Source: Arcobacter sp. (lineage in GTDB: Bacteria > Campylobacterota > Campylobacteria > Campylobacterales > Arcobacteraceae). Taken from it: a stretch of DNA of 52,247 nt. Made by a program: the position numbers and the translations under genes. The notes beneath the pieces were generated by a model. That model searched no databases. It was given only the letters and a program-made list of their open reading frames with translations, and was not told the origin of the DNA. The stretch covers positions 1 through 52,247 of the forward strand of contig PKUK01000008.1 in the NCBI GenBank assembly GCA_002869535.1, written 5' to 3'. Positions 42,865 to 52,002 of this stretch are shown one piece after another (the stretch's first letter is position 1; every line of letters begins with the position of its first letter).

Positions 42865-44403
42865 TTAATAGTCTAATGCAGTATCTCTTGGTAATATAAT
42901 ATCAAAAGTTTTATTTAATCCATCATTTACTTTTGTCAATAAAATATTATTAGCAAACATATCTCCACATAAGATTACATCTTTTGTGTTTAGTTCACTA
43001 TTTATTTTTGTTACATTATCTTTTATAAGGTCACTTAGGCTTTCATAAAAAGAGTAGGCTAACATTCTATTATCAACATCTGCCATTTTGTAGCTCATAA
43101 TACTTTGCACTACTCTTCTATAGTCCAAATAGTTTTCCCCATCTATTTTTGCTAACTTCATATCTATTTGAATACCACTTTTAGAGTTATAAGCAAAAGC
43201 TGCATCTTCAAACTCCAAGTAGTCTTCCATACCTAACATATAAGCACATAGATTTAAGATGGCTTCAAAACCATTTGCATCTTTGTTTTTTAACTCTTTT
43301 TCAAAATTTTGTGAGAATTTCTTTTTATAGTTTTCAGTTAATCTTTGAGTATTTTCATCGATTGCTGATATTTCATCTAAAGCATTTGATACATCACAAA
43401 TAATATTTGGAACTTTTATAATATCTTTTAAACCTTTTCCTGGAACATTTACAGAAATTGTACTGTTTTCACTAGCATACGAAAAATATATTGCAATACT
43501 TGGTTTTATTCTTTTGTTTCTAGAAGCTAGTGTTGCTTTTATCACTCCACCATTGTCATCAAAAAACTCTTTTGAGCTGTTATATTTCTTATCTAAATTA
43601 TAATCATATCTTGGAAACAAAGATTTTTCACCATTGATTACTAATATTTCATCATTAAAATATGTAACTTTTAAACCATCTTGTAAACTCTCTTCTTTTG
43701 CATAAAGTAAATAATCAATTCCCTCTTTTTGTAAAGCATTTGCAAAAAGAATTGTCTCTTTATCATCAGGTAATTTTACATTTATGAAGTTAGTTTTTGA
43801 GTACTCTTTATCTTTGTTTTTTAATACATCAAATTTTAGTTTTACCAAAGGTCTTTCAACAGAACATAGAAGTTGTAAATCTTTCTGATTTAAAGATACT
43901 ATTTGTGATAATTTATTTAAATTACAAACAAAAAGTTTTACTTCTAAATCTTTAGCTTCAAACTCTTCCCTTAAACTCTTTGAAGGTAAAAACAAATCTT
44001 TAAAACCATTATGGGTCTCTATTTTAGATACTTTTCCCTCTTTTATTCTATTTATATCATTAGAAAAATTGATATTTTCATTCTCTTTTATTATATTTGC
44101 AATATCTTTATTTGTAAACATTGATATATTTTGAATTATCTTTTTATCTTCTAACTCTTCTAGTGTTTCATCAAAGAAGTCAATTGTATATGACTTACCT
44201 AAAAATATAGATAGGGGAAGATTCTCGCCTAAAAAGCTAAAAAACTCTTCGATTTTTTCTTCACTATCATCACATGTAATTAAAATAAACCCTATGTATT
44301 GTTTAACCGTCGCATTTATTTTATTCTCTTCTACTAAATTTTCTAGGATATGTTTATAATATAAATTTGTACTATTGAACTCTATTTTATAAAACAGTTT
44401 CAT
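42865..44403 (-). CDS. hydE: HydE-type hydrogenase accessory protein
   Basis: 512 aa. The position after hydD and the length match HydE of Wolinella and Helicobacter, a protein needed for hydrogenase activity whose role is not clear. This is not the radical-SAM HydE of [FeFe] hydrogenases, as there is no CxxxCxxC. The end (DVILCGDMFANNILLTKVND) resembles the Kae1/HypF motif LSGGVFQNKILL, so it may be a HypF-derived relative. No zinc finger or acylphosphatase part. GAGGAT precedes the ATG. Confidence 0.78.
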   Translation of the reverse strand: MKLFYKIEFNSTNLYYKHILENLVEENKINATVKQYIGFILITCDDSEEKIEEFFSFLGENLPLSIFLGKSYTIDFFDETLEELEDKKIIQNISMFTNKDIANIIKENENINFSNDINRIKEGKVSKIETHNGFKDLFLPSKSLREEFEAKDLEVKLFVCNLNKLSQIVSLNQKDLQLLCSVERPLVKLKFDVLKNKDKEYSKTNFINVKLPDDKETILFANALQKEGIDYLLYAKEESLQDGLKVTYFNDEILVINGEKSLFPRYDYNLDKKYNSSKEFFDDNGGVIKATLASRNKRIKPSIAIYFSYASENSTISVNVPGKGLKDIIKVPNIICDVSNALDEISAIDENTQRLTENYKKKFSQNFEKELKNKDANGFEAILNLCAYMLGMEDYLEFEDAAFAYNSKSGIQIDMKLAKIDGENYLDYRRVVQSIMSYKMADVDNRMLAYSFYESLSDLIKDNVTKINSELNTKDVILCGDMFANNILLTKVNDGLNKTFDIILPRDTALDY

Positions 44404-44465: not shown

Positions 44466-44975
44466 TCATTTACAAATTTGAGCAATAGATTTTTGTTCCT
44501 CTTTTTTACTTACTTTTATACCTAGATTTTCAACATCTATAATTGCTTGATTAATCAGCCCTATAAATTTCTCTTCAATAGTTTTTGTAAGTCCAATTTG
44601 TACACTTACAATATCTTCAGGAATAATTCCTATAATTGTAACTTCTGCATGTTTATCTAAAACTGAACAAATCTCTAACATCTCTACAATTTCAACTTCA
44701 TGGGCTGTTTTTCTATATTGTCCAAGTCCCAATAAAACATCAGAAGGAAGTCTAAAGATATCCCCTGCTTTATCTTCAATTGAAACTGTGTCTAAAATAA
44801 TCACATTATCATACTCTTGAAAATAGGTCATTAGTTTAAAACCTAATGTCCCCCCATCCATAATCTCGATATCACCTTCAAATTTATAATTCTCTTCTAA
44901 ATACTTAGCAGCTAAAATACCTACACCTTCATCTTTAAAGAGTAAGTTTCCAACACCTATTACTATATTTTTCAT
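44466..44975 (-). CDS. hydD: Hydrogenase maturation endopeptidase HydD
   Basis: 169 aa HyaD/HybD-family protease. VIGVGNLLFKDEGVGILAAK has the first nickel-sensing Glu, and the later IMDGGTLGF and DKHAEVTIIGI contain the other metal-site residues (Asp, His). It removes the C-terminal peptide of HydB after nickel insertion. AAGGT precedes the ATG. Confidence 0.92.
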   Translation of the reverse strand: MKNIVIGVGNLLFKDEGVGILAAKYLEENYKFEGDIEIMDGGTLGFKLMTYFQEYDNVIILDTVSIEDKAGDIFRLPSDVLLGLGQYRKTAHEVEIVEMLEICSVLDKHAEVTIIGIIPEDIVSVQIGLTKTIEEKFIGLINQAIIDVENLGIKVSKKEEQKSIAQICK

Positions 44976-45084: not shown

Positions 45085-45798
45085 TTATTTTTTTTGAGAA
45101 TTAGCTTTTTTGTTTACGAATTTAGTTCCACCAAATACAATATTGATATCACCCTCTCTCCAAAAAATAGTTCTCCATACTTGATAATAAATATGAGACA
45201 TAACCCACATCAACAATAAATACATTGCTGTATGATGTGCAATTCTTACACCCATATTTCCACCAAATACATCTAAAGTCCAATCAGTTGAGAAATGTAA
45301 TAGCCATGGCCACCAAGCTCCAATAGAACTCTGTCCTGAAGCTAAACCATGAACATACATTTGAAGTCCAGTTAAAAGCATAAACACTAATAATATATGA
45401 AAAAGTGTAAAAAACATAATGTTATAACTATCACTATGTGTTGAATCAAACTTTTTTCTTCTATTAAAAGTTATAAGGTTAAAAAATACTTCACAAAACT
45501 CAATAAAGTTTTTCTTAGTCGGTAAAATCTTCTTATATGGTTTTTCAAATCTAGAAAATAGATATAAATAACCAATCAAAATAGCTGTAACATCAAAGAT
45601 GATTGCCACTATAAAGTGTCCCCATCTATTCCATGCCATAACATATTTATCAACTGCAGGATCTGCAATAAAAGTTTGATAATATGGATGACCTATATAA
45701 AGTCCGGTTGCAACTGCAACAATCATACAAATCGCATTTGTCCAATGGATAGTTCGCATGATTGGAGTCATTCTCTCAACCCTATTAAATTTAGGCAC
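45085..45798 (-). CDS. hydC: Hydrogenase cytochrome b subunit
   Basis: 237 aa from a GTG at 45798 (AGGTG six bases upstream). The open frame runs from 45831, and an ATG at 45771 is also possible. Four transmembrane helices (about 13-34, 56-78, 130-150 and 186-206). Haem His candidates lie in IHWTNAI, WGHFIVAI, FHILLVF and AHHTAMY. HydC passes electrons from HydA to menaquinone. Overlaps hydB by 8 bases. Confidence 0.9.
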   Translation of the reverse strand: MPKFNRVERMTPIMRTIHWTNAICMIVAVATGLYIGHPYYQTFIADPAVDKYVMAWNRWGHFIVAIIFDVTAILIGYLYLFSRFEKPYKKILPTKKNFIEFCEVFFNLITFNRRKKFDSTHSDSYNIMFFTLFHILLVFMLLTGLQMYVHGLASGQSSIGAWWPWLLHFSTDWTLDVFGGNMGVRIAHHTAMYLLLMWVMSHIYYQVWRTIFWREGDINIVFGGTKFVNKKANSQKK

Positions 45799-47527
45799 GG
45801 CAAACACCTGTAGGATCGATTTTGTAAACACCTAATTCTTTACCCTTAGTATCAACAATATGAACTGCACATGCAATACATGGGTCAAAACTATGAATTG
45901 TTCTTAAAATTTCTAATGGCATATTTGGGTCAACAACTTTAGTACCAACTAAAGAAGCTTCATAAGCACCCATTCTATTTTTATAATCTTTTGGTGCTGC
46001 ATTCCAAGTAGAAGGAACAACTGCTTGATAGTTTACAACTTTTCCATCTTTAATTTTAATCCAGTGACCTAATCCACCTCTTGGTGCTTCTGCCATACCA
46101 AAACCTTGAGCATCTTTAGAAACTTTATCAAAGTCAAACTCTGTCCAAGTAGATAAATCTCCACCTGCAGCATTTTTAGCTAACTCATCTGCCCACTCAA
46201 TAACTACATCACACATCATTTCAGTTTCAATTGCACGAGCTGCTGTTCTTCCTACAGTTGAGAATAATACAGAAGTTGGAAGATTACCTTGTTTTAAGAA
46301 TGTTGTAACATATTTACTAATTCTTTCATCACCACGTGCAACTCCAACTATCATTCTAGCCAATGGTCCAACTTCAATTCTTTCATCATCATATAATGGT
46401 GACTTAATCCAAGAATATTTGTTTTTTAAATCTAGATATGCAATACCATCTTTTTTCTCTTTAAATCCAGTATATTTTGGTTTTGTTTCACCATCATATG
46501 GATGTAAATTTGTTTCACCTTCATACCAAGCATGAGTAACATCTTCAGTAATTTTTGTTTGGTCTAAATCAAATACTTTTGATAAGTCTTTGTTCATAAC
46601 TATTCCAGAAGGGAAAAGTTTAGCAGCTTCATAAAATGGTGTATCATCTAAGTTAAAGTCACCATAAGACATAAAGTTACCTAAACCACCACCAGTTCCA
46701 TTTAATGCTTCATCAGCATACATAGTTCCAGCCATATAAACATCTGGTAAATATGCTTGTTTTGTAAATTTTTGTGCTTTTTGAATGATATCTTTAAACT
46801 CAGCAATTCTTGCAGGGTTTTTAATATCTTGAACACAAGTAACCCCACCAACAACTATTGATTGAGGATGTGGATTTTTACCACCAAAAATAGCTTGTGC
46901 TTTAGCAATATCTCTTTGTAAGTCTAAAGCATCTAAATAGTGAGAAAGACCAATTAAATTTTGCTCAGGAGTAAGTTTATAAGCTTTACTTCCCCAATAT
47001 GCATTTCCAAATACTCCAAGTCTACCTTGTTTTACAAACTTAGTAACTCTTTCTTGAACTTCTGCAAATACATCTTCACTTGCATTCCAAGGTCTTTGCC
47101 CTGAAAGTTTTGCCCACTTTTGAGCTTCTGCAACTGCTTTTTTAGGATCAGCTTCTAAAGCTTTTGTGATATCTACCCAATCAAGTGCATGTAAATGGTA
47201 AAAATGAACAATATGATCATGAATATATAAACCACCTTGCATTAAGTTTCGCACCAATCTTGCATTTTTTGGAATAGTAACTTTAAATGCATGCTCAACA
47301 GCTTCAATACTTCTTTGGTAGTGAGTACCAGTACATACTCCACAGATTCTCATTGCAAGTAAACCACAATCTCTTGGATCTCTTCCTTTTAAAATCTCTT
47401 CAATTCCTCTAAACATTGTAGAAGAACTGTAAGCGTCAGTAACAACATTATTGTCATCAATTACCGCTTCAATTCTTAAATGTCCTTCAATCCTTGTTAT
47501 AGGATCAATTACGATATGTTTACTCAT
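45791..47527 (-). CDS. hydB: [NiFe] hydrogenase large subunit
   Basis: 578 aa. N-terminal nickel ligands in RICGVCTGTH (Cys62 and Cys65), C-terminal ligands in DPCIACAVH (Cys550 and Cys553), followed by a 22-residue tail removed by HydD after His556. Catalytic site of the H2-uptake enzyme. It lies between hydA and hydC in a tight operon (1-bp overlap with hydA). The large subunit of the periplasm-facing hydrogenase supplies electrons to fumarate, nitrate or other respiration. Confidence 0.97.
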   Translation of the reverse strand: MSKHIVIDPITRIEGHLRIEAVIDDNNVVTDAYSSSTMFRGIEEILKGRDPRDCGLLAMRICGVCTGTHYQRSIEAVEHAFKVTIPKNARLVRNLMQGGLYIHDHIVHFYHLHALDWVDITKALEADPKKAVAEAQKWAKLSGQRPWNASEDVFAEVQERVTKFVKQGRLGVFGNAYWGSKAYKLTPEQNLIGLSHYLDALDLQRDIAKAQAIFGGKNPHPQSIVVGGVTCVQDIKNPARIAEFKDIIQKAQKFTKQAYLPDVYMAGTMYADEALNGTGGGLGNFMSYGDFNLDDTPFYEAAKLFPSGIVMNKDLSKVFDLDQTKITEDVTHAWYEGETNLHPYDGETKPKYTGFKEKKDGIAYLDLKNKYSWIKSPLYDDERIEVGPLARMIVGVARGDERISKYVTTFLKQGNLPTSVLFSTVGRTAARAIETEMMCDVVIEWADELAKNAAGGDLSTWTEFDFDKVSKDAQGFGMAEAPRGGLGHWIKIKDGKVVNYQAVVPSTWNAAPKDYKNRMGAYEASLVGTKVVDPNMPLEILRTIHSFDPCIACAVHIVDTKGKELGVYKIDPTGVCRA

Positions 47528-48774
47528 TATTCCTCCTCACTTTCACCATTATTTATTGATCTTTTTCCAGCTACTGCTGAAGCTACTGCATGAACACCTA
47601 TACCAATAGTAGTTGCAGTTAATAATCCTAATCCAAACTCATCAACAGTTTTTTCAACTCCACCTGTTGGTGCTTTGATATTTGCATCTGCCATTGGTCT
47701 CTCATAAGCATATTTATCCCAGAAGTCTGGCTCAGAACATCCAATACAACCTCGACCGACACCAATTGGCCAGTTTGCACCTTCGTTATATCTGATAATT
47801 GAACAGTTATTAAATGTCATAGGTCCTTTACAACCTACTTTATATAAACACCAGTTATTTTTAGCACCTTCATCACCAAACTCTTCTACATATTCACCAG
47901 CATCAAAGTGTGCTCTTCTTTCACAGTTATCATGAATTCTATATCCAAATGCAAATTTTGGTCTAAGAAGTGAATCTAATTCTGGAATTTGACCAGTTAA
48001 AACATAATGTAATACAACCCCAACCATATTTGCTGGGTTTGCAGGACAGGCAGGAATATTAATAACAGGTTTACCTTTTACTAAATCCATAACACCAACT
48101 GCACCAGTTGGATTTGGAGCAGCAGCTGGAATTCCTCCAAAAGTAGCACATGCACCTACAGCAACAACAGCAGCTGCATCTTTAGACAATCTCATTAAAT
48201 GTTCATGGAAAGTTTCACCAGATGCTCCAATAGTTCCATATTGACCATTCATAGCCATAGTAATTGACCCTTCTACAAACAGTAAATATTTACCTTTAAA
48301 GTGCTCAATTGCATCTTCAAGTTGTGCATCAGCTTGATGTCCAGAAGCTGCCATAATAGTTTCATGGAACTCTAATGATAATACATCAAATAATAAATCA
48401 TCAACAGTAGGTGCAGATGATCTTAACAGTGCTTCAGAGTTTCCAGCACAATCTTGAAGCTCAATCCAAATTACAGGAACTCTATTCATAAGTTCAGTTG
48501 CTTCTGCAACCAATGGAGTAAACATAGGAGGTAACATAAGCGTTGCAGTTGTTGCACTTGCCCACTTCATGAAATCTCTTCTATTTACACCTTCACTCTC
48601 TACTACTTCCATCAAATCAATATCTTTAAGTGCAGGTTGATTTCTAAGACTACTCAATCTAGCTTTTGCTTTTTCAAACATGCTGTTGTAGTACTCTTCA
48701 CCTTTGTTCGTATCCACTCTTGCAGAGTTCTGATTAAAAACTTTTTTAACCATCTCCTGAGAATCGTATGCCAT
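47527..48774 (-). CDS. hydA: [NiFe] hydrogenase small subunit
   Basis: 415 aa. Tat signal NRRDFMKWAS (Arg65-Arg66) after an unusually long 60-residue cytosolic lead. Cluster ligands: Cys109, the VGACATFGG Cys, IPACPANP, HDNC, KVGCKGPMTFNNC and GCIGCSEPDF. The usual CxxC start of the proximal site reads CAGN (Cys109, Asn112). A C-terminal helix (about 380-400) anchors it to the membrane. AAGGAG precedes the ATG. First gene of hydABC. Confidence 0.96.
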   Translation of the reverse strand: MAYDSQEMVKKVFNQNSARVDTNKGEEYYNSMFEKAKARLSSLRNQPALKDIDLMEVVESEGVNRRDFMKWASATTATLMLPPMFTPLVAEATELMNRVPVIWIELQDCAGNSEALLRSSAPTVDDLLFDVLSLEFHETIMAASGHQADAQLEDAIEHFKGKYLLFVEGSITMAMNGQYGTIGASGETFHEHLMRLSKDAAAVVAVGACATFGGIPAAAPNPTGAVGVMDLVKGKPVINIPACPANPANMVGVVLHYVLTGQIPELDSLLRPKFAFGYRIHDNCERRAHFDAGEYVEEFGDEGAKNNWCLYKVGCKGPMTFNNCSIIRYNEGANWPIGVGRGCIGCSEPDFWDKYAYERPMADANIKAPTGGVEKTVDEFGLGLLTATTIGIGVHAVASAVAGKRSINNGESEEE

Positions 48775-48796
48775 ATGTTCTCCTTTTAGTTTAAAA

Positions 48797-48810
48797 AATG
48801 AATGTTCATT
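48797..48810. promoter_or_regulatory. Inverted repeat AATGAA-TG-TTCATT just upstream of hydA
   Basis: Perfect 6-bp arms (7 if the flanking A/T pair is counted) centred about 30 bases before the hydA ATG, between promoter and ribosome site. Same half site (TGAA/TTCA) as the other candidate operators, but with a two-base spacer. It resembles a short repressor site, and could block early transcription of hydABC. Confidence 0.4.
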
Positions 48811-48896
48811 TACTTACGTAATTTAGCTTTTAAAAACTTATAATAAACTTAATTGTACACGTATAAATATCGCTTAAATAGCAATAAAATAGCATT

Positions 48897-49041: not shown

Positions 49042-49057
49042 ATGAATGATTATTCAT
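49042..49057. promoter_or_regulatory. Inverted repeat ATGAAT-N4-ATTCAT at the hupL stop, upstream of hydA
   Basis: ATGAATGATTATTCAT, 6-bp arms with a 4-base spacer, overlapping the hupL stop codon by one base and lying about 270 bases upstream of hydA. Its arms and spacing equal those of the site upstream of hypB. Confidence 0.4.
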
Positions 49058-50409
49058 TAATGAGTTGTGCAAACTGAACAAACATCAAAAGAGCGTAAAA
49101 TAATTGTCGCTTCTTCTAATGACTTTGAACCAATAATTGCTTTTTGTGCAACACCTAGTTCTTTATTATGTTTAGGGCTTAAATTCCAAACTGTTGGAGT
49201 AATCACATCATATTTTGCAATCAATCCTTTTTTAACCGTAATATTGTGCAATAAAGAACCTCTACATGCTTCAACTGTTGAAGTTGCACTAATATCATCT
49301 AGTGATTTTAAATCAACTGTTGGCTTTATATATGACTCTTGGGATATATCTAATTGACTTATTAACTTTTTACTATAAACTAATAGATGTGCAATTTCAT
49401 CAACCCTTGCCATTACTCTTGTAAAAACAGAATCATCATACTTTTTATGAATATCTTTTATAAACTCTCTTTTATTGATAATTGCACGAGACAGTGGACC
49501 AACTTCATAAAACTCATTATTGTATTGAACTGATTTTGACCAAGTATGTGCTTTTCTATCATTTTTGCTATTTACTTTAAATGTATACTCATCATGTTCT
49601 ACAATTTTATCCATATCAATTTTTCTAGAAATTCTATGTTTATGAATTCCAGGTTCCATATCTAGCATATTTCCTAAAACAATATGACTGTTATGTGATT
49701 TTCCAACCTGCTCCAATTTAGTTTCAAATGCAATCTCAGAAAAATCTCTTAATGATGAAGAAATAGTATCTATTTCCTCAAATCTTTTTAAAGACAAATA
49801 ATTTTCAATACTAATTCCTGCAATACTTTTTTCAAAATACTTAATAGTTTGGTCAAGATAATTTTCACAAGTAACAATATCCAAAAGAGTTGGATCACTA
49901 ACAACTCCACCAGGAACCATATAAGATGTATGTGGCCACTGCCCTGCATAAATGGCTAGAGCTTTTATTGTTTCACTCGCTGCCTTTTGGGCTTCTAACC
50001 ACTTTTCACCTTTTATAGGTGTGTAACCACTGTATTGTTTTTTTGATTGATTTACTACATCTGGCATTATAAACATATAAAACCATTTAATATGAGAATC
50101 TATTATCTCTATAATCAAACCAAGTTCTCTAAGTATTTTTGCTTTATTTGTTATTTCTAATTCTATACCTGCATTTTTATATAGGTTTTCTATGGCATTT
50201 ACAGTTGCTAATAGATGTGCTTGTCCACAAATACCACAGATTCTTGGGGTATAAACTAAAGCATCTAAAATAGGCTTGTTTTCTAATATATATTCAAATC
50301 CTCTAAAATTTAAGAAATCAATTGAAGCATCACTTACTTTTTCATTTCTCCAAGTTAAACTAAGTTTTGCTTCACCTTCAATTCGTTCAATTATATCAAC
50401 TGTTTTCAT
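49057..50409 (-). CDS. hupL: Second [NiFe] hydrogenase large subunit, no C-terminal extension
   Basis: 450 aa. Nickel ligands in RICGICGQAH (Cys58 and Cys61) and CSVCTTH (Cys444, Cys447), with the protein ending at that final His450. The absence of a cleavable tail is typical of sensory (HupV/HoxC) hydrogenases and other group 2 enzymes, and it means HydD is not needed. No Tat signal, so it is cytoplasmic. The start overlaps the hupS stop (ATGA). Group 2 uptake or sensory role cannot be decided. Confidence 0.88.
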   Translation of the reverse strand: MKTVDIIERIEGEAKLSLTWRNEKVSDASIDFLNFRGFEYILENKPILDALVYTPRICGICGQAHLLATVNAIENLYKNAGIELEITNKAKILRELGLIIEIIDSHIKWFYMFIMPDVVNQSKKQYSGYTPIKGEKWLEAQKAASETIKALAIYAGQWPHTSYMVPGGVVSDPTLLDIVTCENYLDQTIKYFEKSIAGISIENYLSLKRFEEIDTISSSLRDFSEIAFETKLEQVGKSHNSHIVLGNMLDMEPGIHKHRISRKIDMDKIVEHDEYTFKVNSKNDRKAHTWSKSVQYNNEFYEVGPLSRAIINKREFIKDIHKKYDDSVFTRVMARVDEIAHLLVYSKKLISQLDISQESYIKPTVDLKSLDDISATSTVEACRGSLLHNITVKKGLIAKYDVITPTVWNLSPKHNKELGVAQKAIIGSKSLEEATIILRSFDVCSVCTTH

Positions 50410-51332
50410 TTGTCTTTACTTTCATGGAATTGATTTAATCTTTGATTTAACCTAGGTATTGTAAATGTTTTTGCAACACCAGAAATAGATAGATATGCTC
50501 TTTTAGAAATTCCTAAAGGTGGCTCAAGTGGAATTCCTATATGTTTTTTTGTTTCAAACATATTTAATCTTGGAAAATCATATTCAGTACAACCAATACA
50601 AGGCATACCTACTCTTGTCTTACTACTTACATCATTCCAAAGTATTTTATTACAGTTTGAGTGAGTCATAGGACCACGACACCCTTCATTATAAAATAAG
50701 CATCCCTCTTTAAGTCCAAAACTTTTAGCTTCAACTTTCCATTCAAAATATTCATTTCTTGTACAACCATGATGTGCTAATCCACCATAAATCTCAATAG
50801 GTCTTGATTTATCATCAAGTATTATTGAAGCATTAAATTTTAGTGTAAATAGTGTTTGTAGTATCCATTCAGGATGAACTGGACATCCAGTTAGATTTAT
50901 TATTTCATGGGAGAGTAAAGATTCGTTTTGTGAACTTATATAATCTTTCACTCCAGCAATATCATCATTTTCTTCAAATCTTGAATGTATACCGCCATAT
51001 GAAGCACAAGAACCAACAGCTATTATAAATTTAGATTTTGAAATTAATTGGTTTAAAATATCTGATATTTTTTTATTAGATATTGAAAAATAGAACTCAT
51101 TATTTGTTATTGCACCCTCAACTAACAAATAATCAATTCTATCATTTGATTGTAAAATCTCATCAAGTGATATATTTGTACTTAAACTTGGATGATAAAT
51201 TAAATTAAAATTATTATTAAACTGCTCAAATCTTGATGAACTTGAAGATAAAAAAGAGTGAGTATTTCCATTGCAAGTAATACCCTGAAGCCAAACTACT
51301 CTTGGCAAGTTTGGTTCATTACTCTTCTTCAT
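50406..51332 (-). CDS. hupS: Second [NiFe] hydrogenase small subunit, cytoplasmic
   Basis: 308 aa with no Tat signal and no membrane anchor. Cluster ligands: Cys20 in ITCNGNTHSF, VGSCASYGG, LTGCPVHP, HHGCTRNEYFEW, EGCRGPMTHSNC and PCIGCTEYDF. The first CxxC is CNGN, so the second proximal-cluster Cys is Asn23. Pairs with HupL. The gene overlaps tetR by 14 bases, so expression should be tied to that regulator. Similar to group 2 HupS/HoxB-type proteins. Confidence 0.87.
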   Translation of the reverse strand: MKKSNEPNLPRVVWLQGITCNGNTHSFLSSSSSRFEQFNNNFNLIYHPSLSTNISLDEILQSNDRIDYLLVEGAITNNEFYFSISNKKISDILNQLISKSKFIIAVGSCASYGGIHSRFEENDDIAGVKDYISSQNESLLSHEIINLTGCPVHPEWILQTLFTLKFNASIILDDKSRPIEIYGGLAHHGCTRNEYFEWKVEAKSFGLKEGCLFYNEGCRGPMTHSNCNKILWNDVSSKTRVGMPCIGCTEYDFPRLNMFETKKHIGIPLEPPLGISKRAYLSISGVAKTFTIPRLNQRLNQFHESKDK

Positions 51333-51912
51333 ACTTTAATGCTCGATAGATATTTTCAGCTATTGAATCTGAATATTCTAGTAAATCTTTTTCTAAAACA
51401 TTCTCTCCATTCATAAAAGCAAAGCCACCTAAACTTCCCATTAACATACCAAATGCAGGGAAAAACTCTTGATCTCTGAACTCTTTTTTTTGTGCACCAT
51501 CATCAAGTAAAATCATAACTTCTGTTACAAACTCACCTACACACAAAAAACCTTCACATCCATCTTTAAAAACTTCCCTATTTGATAAATAAACCCTTAA
51601 AAAATACTCTATAACTTCAGGAGAATTTTTTACATTTGTTAGATAGTTTTTAATAAACATATAAAGTTTTTCTTTTGAGCTAATATCCATATTATTGATT
51701 ATTCTTAAATCATCAGCAATAATATTTGTAGAGTATTTTATAGCAACTTTTGCTAACTCCTCTTTTGAAGAAAAATAGTTATACATATTTCCCACACTCA
51801 TACTCATAGCTTTTGCTATATCTGGAATTGTTGTATTATAAAAGCCTTTTTTTGCAAATAATTTTAATGATTTTTGAATAATATTGGTTTTTTTATCTTC
51901 TTTTGCAGACAT
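51319..51912 (-). CDS. TetR-family transcriptional regulator of the hup operon
   Basis: 197 aa. The N-terminal helix-turn-helix is clear: LFAKKGFYNTTIPDIAKAMS and MSVGNMYNYFSSKEELAKVAI, the TetR pattern. The C-terminal ligand domain is not recognisable, and has a GCEGFLC segment with two Cys. First gene of tetR-hupS-hupL, with AAGGT before the ATG. It probably controls this operon, and by the repeats noted elsewhere perhaps hyd and hyp. Ligand unknown. Confidence 0.9.
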   Translation of the reverse strand: MSAKEDKKTNIIQKSLKLFAKKGFYNTTIPDIAKAMSMSVGNMYNYFSSKEELAKVAIKYSTNIIADDLRIINNMDISSKEKLYMFIKNYLTNVKNSPEVIEYFLRVYLSNREVFKDGCEGFLCVGEFVTEVMILLDDGAQKKEFRDQEFFPAFGMLMGSLGGFAFMNGENVLEKDLLEYSDSIAENIYRALKYEEE

Positions 51913-51971
51913 ATTTTTTTACCTTAGTTTAATAATGATATATGATATTAAAAAATATGTTAATTATAAAT

Positions 51972-51981
51972 GAATATTCAG
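51972..51981. promoter_or_regulatory. Palindrome TGAATATTCA upstream of tetR
   Basis: A perfect 10-bp palindrome 60 bases before the tetR ATG, in the 124-base acnB-tetR gap. It shares the TGAAT/ATTCA half sites with the other candidate operators and suits an autoregulatory site. Short enough to arise by chance in AT-rich DNA. Confidence 0.35.
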
Positions 51982-52002
51982 TAGATAGAGGAAATAAAAT
52001 AA

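Follow-up and report, generated by a model that had tools for sequence, protein, structure and literature searches.

Analysis of a 52,247-nucleotide stretch of DNA from Arcobacter sp. (contig PKUK01000008.1 of assembly GCA_002869535.1, positions 1 to 52,247; hereafter the window), together with the corresponding loci of its relatives, points to a hydrogen-responsive repressor circuit in which a TetR-family protein represses the respiratory hydrogenase operon hydABCD and a cytoplasmic NiFe hydrogenase, HupSL, relays the presence of H2 to that repressor. We put the probability of this reading at about 0.62, and its parts differ in standing. Control of hydA by TetR through a palindromic operator is well supported by comparison of sequences, and the proposal that TetR and HupSL are functionally tied and act as a unit is supported; that H2 is the signal, HupSL the sensor, derepression the direction of the response and electron relay a step in it is what we infer. 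The initial annotation of the window had raised the possibility that H2 is sensed by a switch in which TetR substitutes for a kinase, and the loss of the operator along with TetR in relatives now lends that idea support, with the relay through HupSL as its conjectural part.

The genes and sites on which the argument rests are the following.

51319..51912, minus strand: tetR, TetR-family regulator of 197 aa, helix-turn-helix at approximately residues 11-55
50406..51332, minus strand: hupS, 308 aa with NiFe small-subunit domains, no twin-arginine translocation (Tat) signal or membrane anchor
49057..50409, minus strand: hupL, 450 aa, NiFeSe_Hases large subunit, C-terminus CxxCTTH, tailless
47527..48774, minus strand: hydA, predicted target; encodes the Tat-bearing small subunit of the group 1 (respiratory) hydrogenase
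45791..47527, minus strand: hydB, respiratory hydrogenase large subunit, tailed at its C-terminus
45085..45831, minus strand: hydC, cytochrome b subunit
44466..44975, minus strand: hydD, maturation endopeptidase for hydrogenase
48796..48811, no strand assigned: operator 1, AAATGAACATTCATTT, perfect 16-bp palindrome 22-37 bp 5′ of the hydA ATG
51968..51983, no strand assigned: operator 2, TACTGAATATTCATTT, imperfect copy 5′ of tetR, beside a predicted -35 element
49042..49058, no strand assigned: candidate weaker operator 3, AATGAATAATCATTCAT, at the hupL 3′ end and approximately 270 bp upstream of hydA

The overlapping arrangement of tetR, hupS and hupL directly upstream of hydABC is as first described: all three genes were confirmed in place on the minus strand, with an overlap of 14 nt between tetR and hupS, an ATGA overlap between hupS and hupL, and the hydA start 282 bp past the end of hupL. 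The accompanying observations on the proteins also held. HupL ends at the CxxCxxH motif (...SFDVCSVCTTH) without a tail, whereas HydB is tailed, and a Tat match is absent from HupS and present in HydA. No PAS histidine kinase or NtrC-type regulator adjoins hupSL in the window; kinases were not searched for genome-wide.

Specifically, it is a palindrome with the consensus AAATGAA-YR-TTCATTT that would connect the regulator with the respiratory operon. It lies approximately 25 bp upstream of hydA, between the promoter region and the ribosome-binding site, and is perfect there, with an imperfect copy upstream of tetR; the genome, 2.68 Mb in length, has a single exact copy of the 16-mer, the one at hydA. 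A position weight matrix was trained on 40 hydA sites from TetR-bearing Arcobacteraceae loci and scanned over all loci, and a site was called where the best match in the hydA upstream region beat dinucleotide shuffles at p<0.02. By this measure, in which the p-values are descriptive because the genomes compared are related, the operator is found in 44 of 44 TetR-bearing main-type Arcobacteraceae (the family used for training), in 26 of 33 held-out loci from other families and in 7 of 11 divergent-type loci; among Arcobacteraceae that lack TetR it precedes just 1 of 18 hydA genes (median p 0.52). Likewise, exact 14-mers number 71 across 52 TetR-bearing main-type genomes versus 26 for a reversed control pattern, and 8 versus 8 in 36 genomes without TetR. 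A site lost along with its regulator is the pattern expected of a true operator, and it points to hydA as the target. The significance of the palindrome comes from this comparison with relatives and not from the window, where a search was uninformative (20 one-mismatch matches versus 16.7 expected). Furthermore, with two mismatches allowed, the whole genome yielded 157 matches versus 155 for the reversed control, and thus weak sites elsewhere are not readable as targets.

The distribution of further copies suggests a regulon. In many relatives the site upstream of tetR likewise lies at -66 to -95 of that gene, and the position of operator 2 suggests that tetR is autoregulated. Weak sites resembling operator 3 recur at approximately -150 to -285 upstream of hydA in several relatives. 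Many Arcobacteraceae carry the same operator in front of hydA2, the first gene of a second hydABC operon. Five genomes, all of a single genus, have it in front of hypB, and in Hydrogenothermaceae (Aquificota) weaker sites stand at the same distance from that gene (-26 to -33); the window's own hypB has no operator site. In two Arcobacteraceae (L350:1972 in G053 and L354:1996 in G056) an exact operator lies 58 bp 5′ of an nrfHA-like nitrite reductase operon, in keeping with the published rise of A. butzleri nrfA under H2. Single genomes also carry extra operators 5′ of unrelated genes (L351-L353, L355, L356), and in L166 (G073) a GAATGAATATTCAT site lies between hypF and the divergent TetR (45%) that comes before it.

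The regulator itself matches Pfam TetR_N at 51 bits (cut-off 24), and none of the NCBIfam equivalogs matched it at its cut-off. An AlphaFold2 model built with 32 sequences has a predicted local distance difference test score of 90, and its nearest solved fold is FadR (PDB 3whb; template modelling score 0.80-0.83). Although the B. subtilis FadR has the same fold, it is only 19% identical to this TetR, which is set apart by an invariant C-x4-C. On the helix-turn-helix, the fold and the palindromic operators in its own and its target promoters, all in silico, the protein is probably a repressor of the TetR family. The two cysteines, C119 and C124, lie in the ligand domain, where the model places them in the loop that joins predicted helices 6 and 7. 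They are invariant in 78/78 and 80/80 orthologues examined, including those without linked HupSL. One might guess at a redox or iron-sulfur role for the pair. Approximately 20 Arcobacteraceae loci (among them L037, L040, L049, L056, L057, L096 and L103) have a tetR that lacks an ATG, GTG or TTG start; the conserved frame opens at an ATT or ATA behind a ribosome-binding site of the AAGGA type, and so rare a start codon may hold repressor levels low. The 161-aa truncated TetR seen in many relatives is an artefact of the open-reading-frame caller at these codons.

Beyond the window, 80 loci from relatives were read for gene order. Wherever all three genes are readable (77/77 loci) they stand in the order tetR-hupS-hupL and in the same direction, mostly followed by hydABCD; in the remaining 3 of the 80, the genes are cut short by contig ends or run past them. 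The linkage, whose conservation the initial annotation had named as a check, therefore holds across Campylobacterota, and the layout is not one of chance. Named examples are Sulfurospirillum diekertiae, Poseidonibacter lekithochrous and a plasmid of Sulfurimonas paralvinellae (NZ_CP041407), annotated as TetR/AcrR, hydrogenase, large subunit and hydABC. In most Arcobacteraceae the identity to the window proteins is 74-85% for TetR, approximately 66% for HupS, approximately 60% for HupL and 82-92% for HydA and HydB; TetR is held more tightly than the HupSL hydrogenase beside it. Some Arcobacteraceae have a gene of approximately 211 aa inserted antisense between hupS and hupL (L042:9178-9813, L048:10745-11392, L050:10942-11577, L106:9598-10248), whose GDCEDFVIAKY motif we take to be that of a transglutaminase-like peptidase. 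TetR genes of this family number three or four in some genomes (G111, G125, G253), and in L088 one copy stands beside hupSL and another beside a separate hydABC operon.

It is informative to examine where TetR and HupSL occur irrespective of linkage. Among 104 Arcobacteraceae genomes TetR is present in 67 and HupL in 65, and among 399 genomes of the order in 179 and 175, with identical counts of genera. HydB is found in 85 of the 104, and approximately 18 genomes keep HydB and lack both TetR and HupSL; the two have been gained and lost jointly across Campylobacterota. A scan of genome contigs revealed the same TetR in Aquificota, where it is present in 60 of 136 genomes and tailless HupL in 56 (both in 54, TetR only in 6, HupL only in 2, neither in 74). 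The 51 Aquificota pairs with coordinates comprise 20 that are linked, 6 at 12-14 kb and 25 that are unlinked or on separate contigs. Hydrogenothermaceae have a complete tetR-hupSL-hydABCD cluster. In Aquificaceae tetR mostly lies between hypB and hydA and hupSL does not adjoin it, the operator being again 5′ of hydA (for example GAATGAACATTCATTT in L249); all five Aquificaceae genomes that the scan revealed hold a tailless HupL elsewhere. That TetR and HupSL occur together even when unlinked argues for a functional tie. Two Aquificaceae have a 291-aa gene between tetR and hydA (L246:8628-9503, L247:1495-2370), possibly PAS/GGDEF-like by eye. One family (f15) at first taken to have TetR without HupSL was rejected as such, its weak HupL matches proving to be divergent HupL.

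The class of hydrogenase to which HupSL belongs bears on what it may do. HupL has all of the active-site residues (E11, C58, C61, C444, C447), with I60 and F113 at the positions of the HoxC narrow gas channel, and every intact copy examined in both phyla is tailless; in the loci read, the last residue is H, Q or K. Tailless HupL proteins of the two phyla come together in a single group-2 clade (support 84 at the stem and 98-100 at the main inner nodes), and HoxC/HupV (support 100) and Huc together with a second, tailed Aquificota HupL (support 100) form separate ones. Phylogeny, a check named at the outset, thus places HupL outside the catalytic uptake enzymes Huc/HupSL. Membership in group 2a was also rejected on the absence of a tail and of a cognate protease; Huc-type large subunits, unlike HupL, have a C-terminal tail and a nearby protease gene. 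Huc and cyanobacterial HupSL are the closest solved structures and share with HupS an Asn in place of a proximal-cluster Cys (C20-N-G-N23, or CNGN). HydA also has Asn at this position (CAGN), and the substitution is therefore not specific to HupS.

The initial annotation had seen in HupSL the features of HupUV/HoxBC or of other group 2 enzymes. The general part of that description stands, the protein being tailless, cytoplasmic and of group 2, and the HupUV/HoxBC part falls. HupUV/HoxBC (group 2b) is likewise a cytoplasmic two-subunit NiFe enzyme without Tat signal and with a tailless large subunit, and the C-terminal small-subunit segment, which is conserved in HupS, and nearby, possibly controlled hydrogenase genes are common to both. 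However, HoxC has a Gln after the first CxxC in place of a conserved His (PMC5665086), where HupL has His (Gln occurs only in L084 and L085 among those aligned), and HoxB has a proximal cluster of four Cys; with the separate clade, these differences show that HupSL is not HupUV by descent. The outputs also differ, in that HupUV/HoxBC works through the PAS kinase HupT/HoxJ and the sigma-54 regulator HupR/HoxA, and here the output would be a repressor of the TetR family acting at an operator of its own. In published schemes the Campylobacterota homologues are placed in group 2d (PMC5401914, PMC12286921) or in 2b (PMC7952632), the 2d class including A. aeolicus Hase III, A. butzleri HuaSL and S. 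multivorans HupSL. Published surveys may have lumped the tailless Aquificota enzyme with the tailed group-2 one, which has its own maturation protease (L246:569-3947, L278:4859-8261).

Taken as a circuit, TetR would bind the palindrome before hydA and repress the respiratory hydrogenase operon, would bind more weakly before its own gene and, in some relatives, would extend its control to the hyp maturation operon and to a second hydABCD operon. HupSL, cytoplasmic and without a tail, would serve as a low-abundance H2 sensor and not as an energy enzyme, and its reaction with H2 would relieve repression, either through contact between the proteins or through transfer of electrons to the invariant C-x4-C of TetR. 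The more specific form of the latter, a direct redox pair in which H2-reduced HupSL acts on a disulfide or iron-sulfur cluster at C-x4-C and releases TetR from the hydA, hydA2 and hyp operators, is offered tentatively and may well prove wrong.

Published physiology speaks on both sides. Consistent with derepression, both hynAB sets of A. butzleri rise under H2 (3.7/2.3- and 6.2/4.2-fold), as does nrfA (PMC12286921). Sulfurospirillum proteomes showed no HupSL (PMC6242987), the Hase III of A. aeolicus can hardly be detected and has been called possibly regulatory (PMC10052474), and S. denitrificans has a hupL transcript and yet no soluble H2 uptake (PMC4584964). Nakagawa 2007 (cited in PMC4584964) had already put forward this cytoplasmic hydrogenase as an H2 sensor. 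Several observations weigh against the circuit. The huaSL genes of A. butzleri fall under H2 (PMC12286921), which simple autoregulated derepression would not predict, and the H2/acetate comparison in that study alters more than H2. The hydB gene of S. multivorans does not respond to H2 (PMC5357620), a result qualified by the production of H2 from pyruvate by bacteria of this type. The Gln characteristic of HoxC is missing from HupL, as is the fourth proximal Cys from HupS. In addition, two Campylobacterota (G240, G316) keep TetR, its hydABC and the operator without HupSL, and TetR occurs without HupSL in the six Aquificota, two of these being partial TetR matches. TetR is therefore able to function or persist without HupSL, and the tie between them is not absolute.

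The strongest alternative, which we nonetheless consider unlikely, is that HupSL works as a cytoplasmic uptake hydrogenase, a catalytic enzyme that supplies low-potential electrons to ferredoxin or biosynthesis and has no part in sensing, TetR being an ordinary ligand-responsive repressor acting jointly on all the hydrogenase operons, hupSL included. The full set of active-site residues would suit such an enzyme, as would the group 2d assignment, for which a role in the reductive tricarboxylic acid (rTCA) cycle has been proposed (PMC5401914), and the two Campylobacterota with TetR alone; in S. multivorans, where the TetR gene is directly upstream of hupSL, TetR has been suggested to repress it (Kruse 2017, PMC5357620). 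In the organism of the window, however, supply of rTCA reductant was rejected, since no ATP-citrate lyase match above the cut-off was found in its genome. No partner gene for an electron acceptor was found for HupSL, and unlinked copies have neither their own protease nor a cytochrome b partner gene. Divergence is faster in HupL and HupS than in HydA, HydB and TetR, in relatives the two HupSL proteins are rare or have escaped detection, and the hua genes fall with H2. Joint loss of HupSL and TetR from genomes that keep hyd is unexpected for a separate enzyme, and the tailed Aquificota enzyme fits the catalytic role better.

It is considerably less probable that TetR is itself the sensor, responding through C-x4-C to a redox, thiol, iron-sulfur or nickel signal, with HupSL only modulating the response or making a local redox signal; in that case hydrogenase expression would track redox or metal state and not H2 as such. 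The invariance of the cysteines even where HupSL is not linked and their place in a ligand-domain loop favor this idea, but the near-complete co-occurrence of HupSL, even unlinked, and the dependence of A. butzleri hynAB induction on H2 do not. The notion that tetR and hupSL are merely chance neighbors of hydABC with no regulatory tie is already contradicted by a gene order conserved over two phyla, an operator conserved and lost with TetR, and the co-occurrence of TetR and HupSL when unlinked.

Elsewhere in the window, between hydD and a full-length hypF, positions 42865-44403 encode a 512-aa protein with only a C-terminal HypF_C_2 domain, and nearly all relatives keep a gene at this position.

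As a kind of system, an H2-sensing hydrogenase that controls a respiratory hydrogenase is already known. What appears to be new is the TetR output, together with its operator and predicted regulon, and the spread over two phyla; none of these was found in the literature searched, which held no paper tying a group 2d HupSL to a TetR operator at hydA. What the cytoplasmic group 2 hydrogenase does in Campylobacterota and Aquificota has been disputed for approximately two decades, with rTCA reductant supply, a starvation enzyme and an H2 sensor as the proposals, and a defined repressor, operator and predicted regulon make that question testable. Should the direct redox pair exist, it would be a phosphorylation-free H2 sensor common to Campylobacterota and Aquificota and would give a function to most tailless hydrogenases of the group 2d type. 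If the repressor circuit holds, it is through a one-component TetR system, and not the known kinase cascade, that H2 would govern respiration at vents and nitrate ammonification driven by H2.

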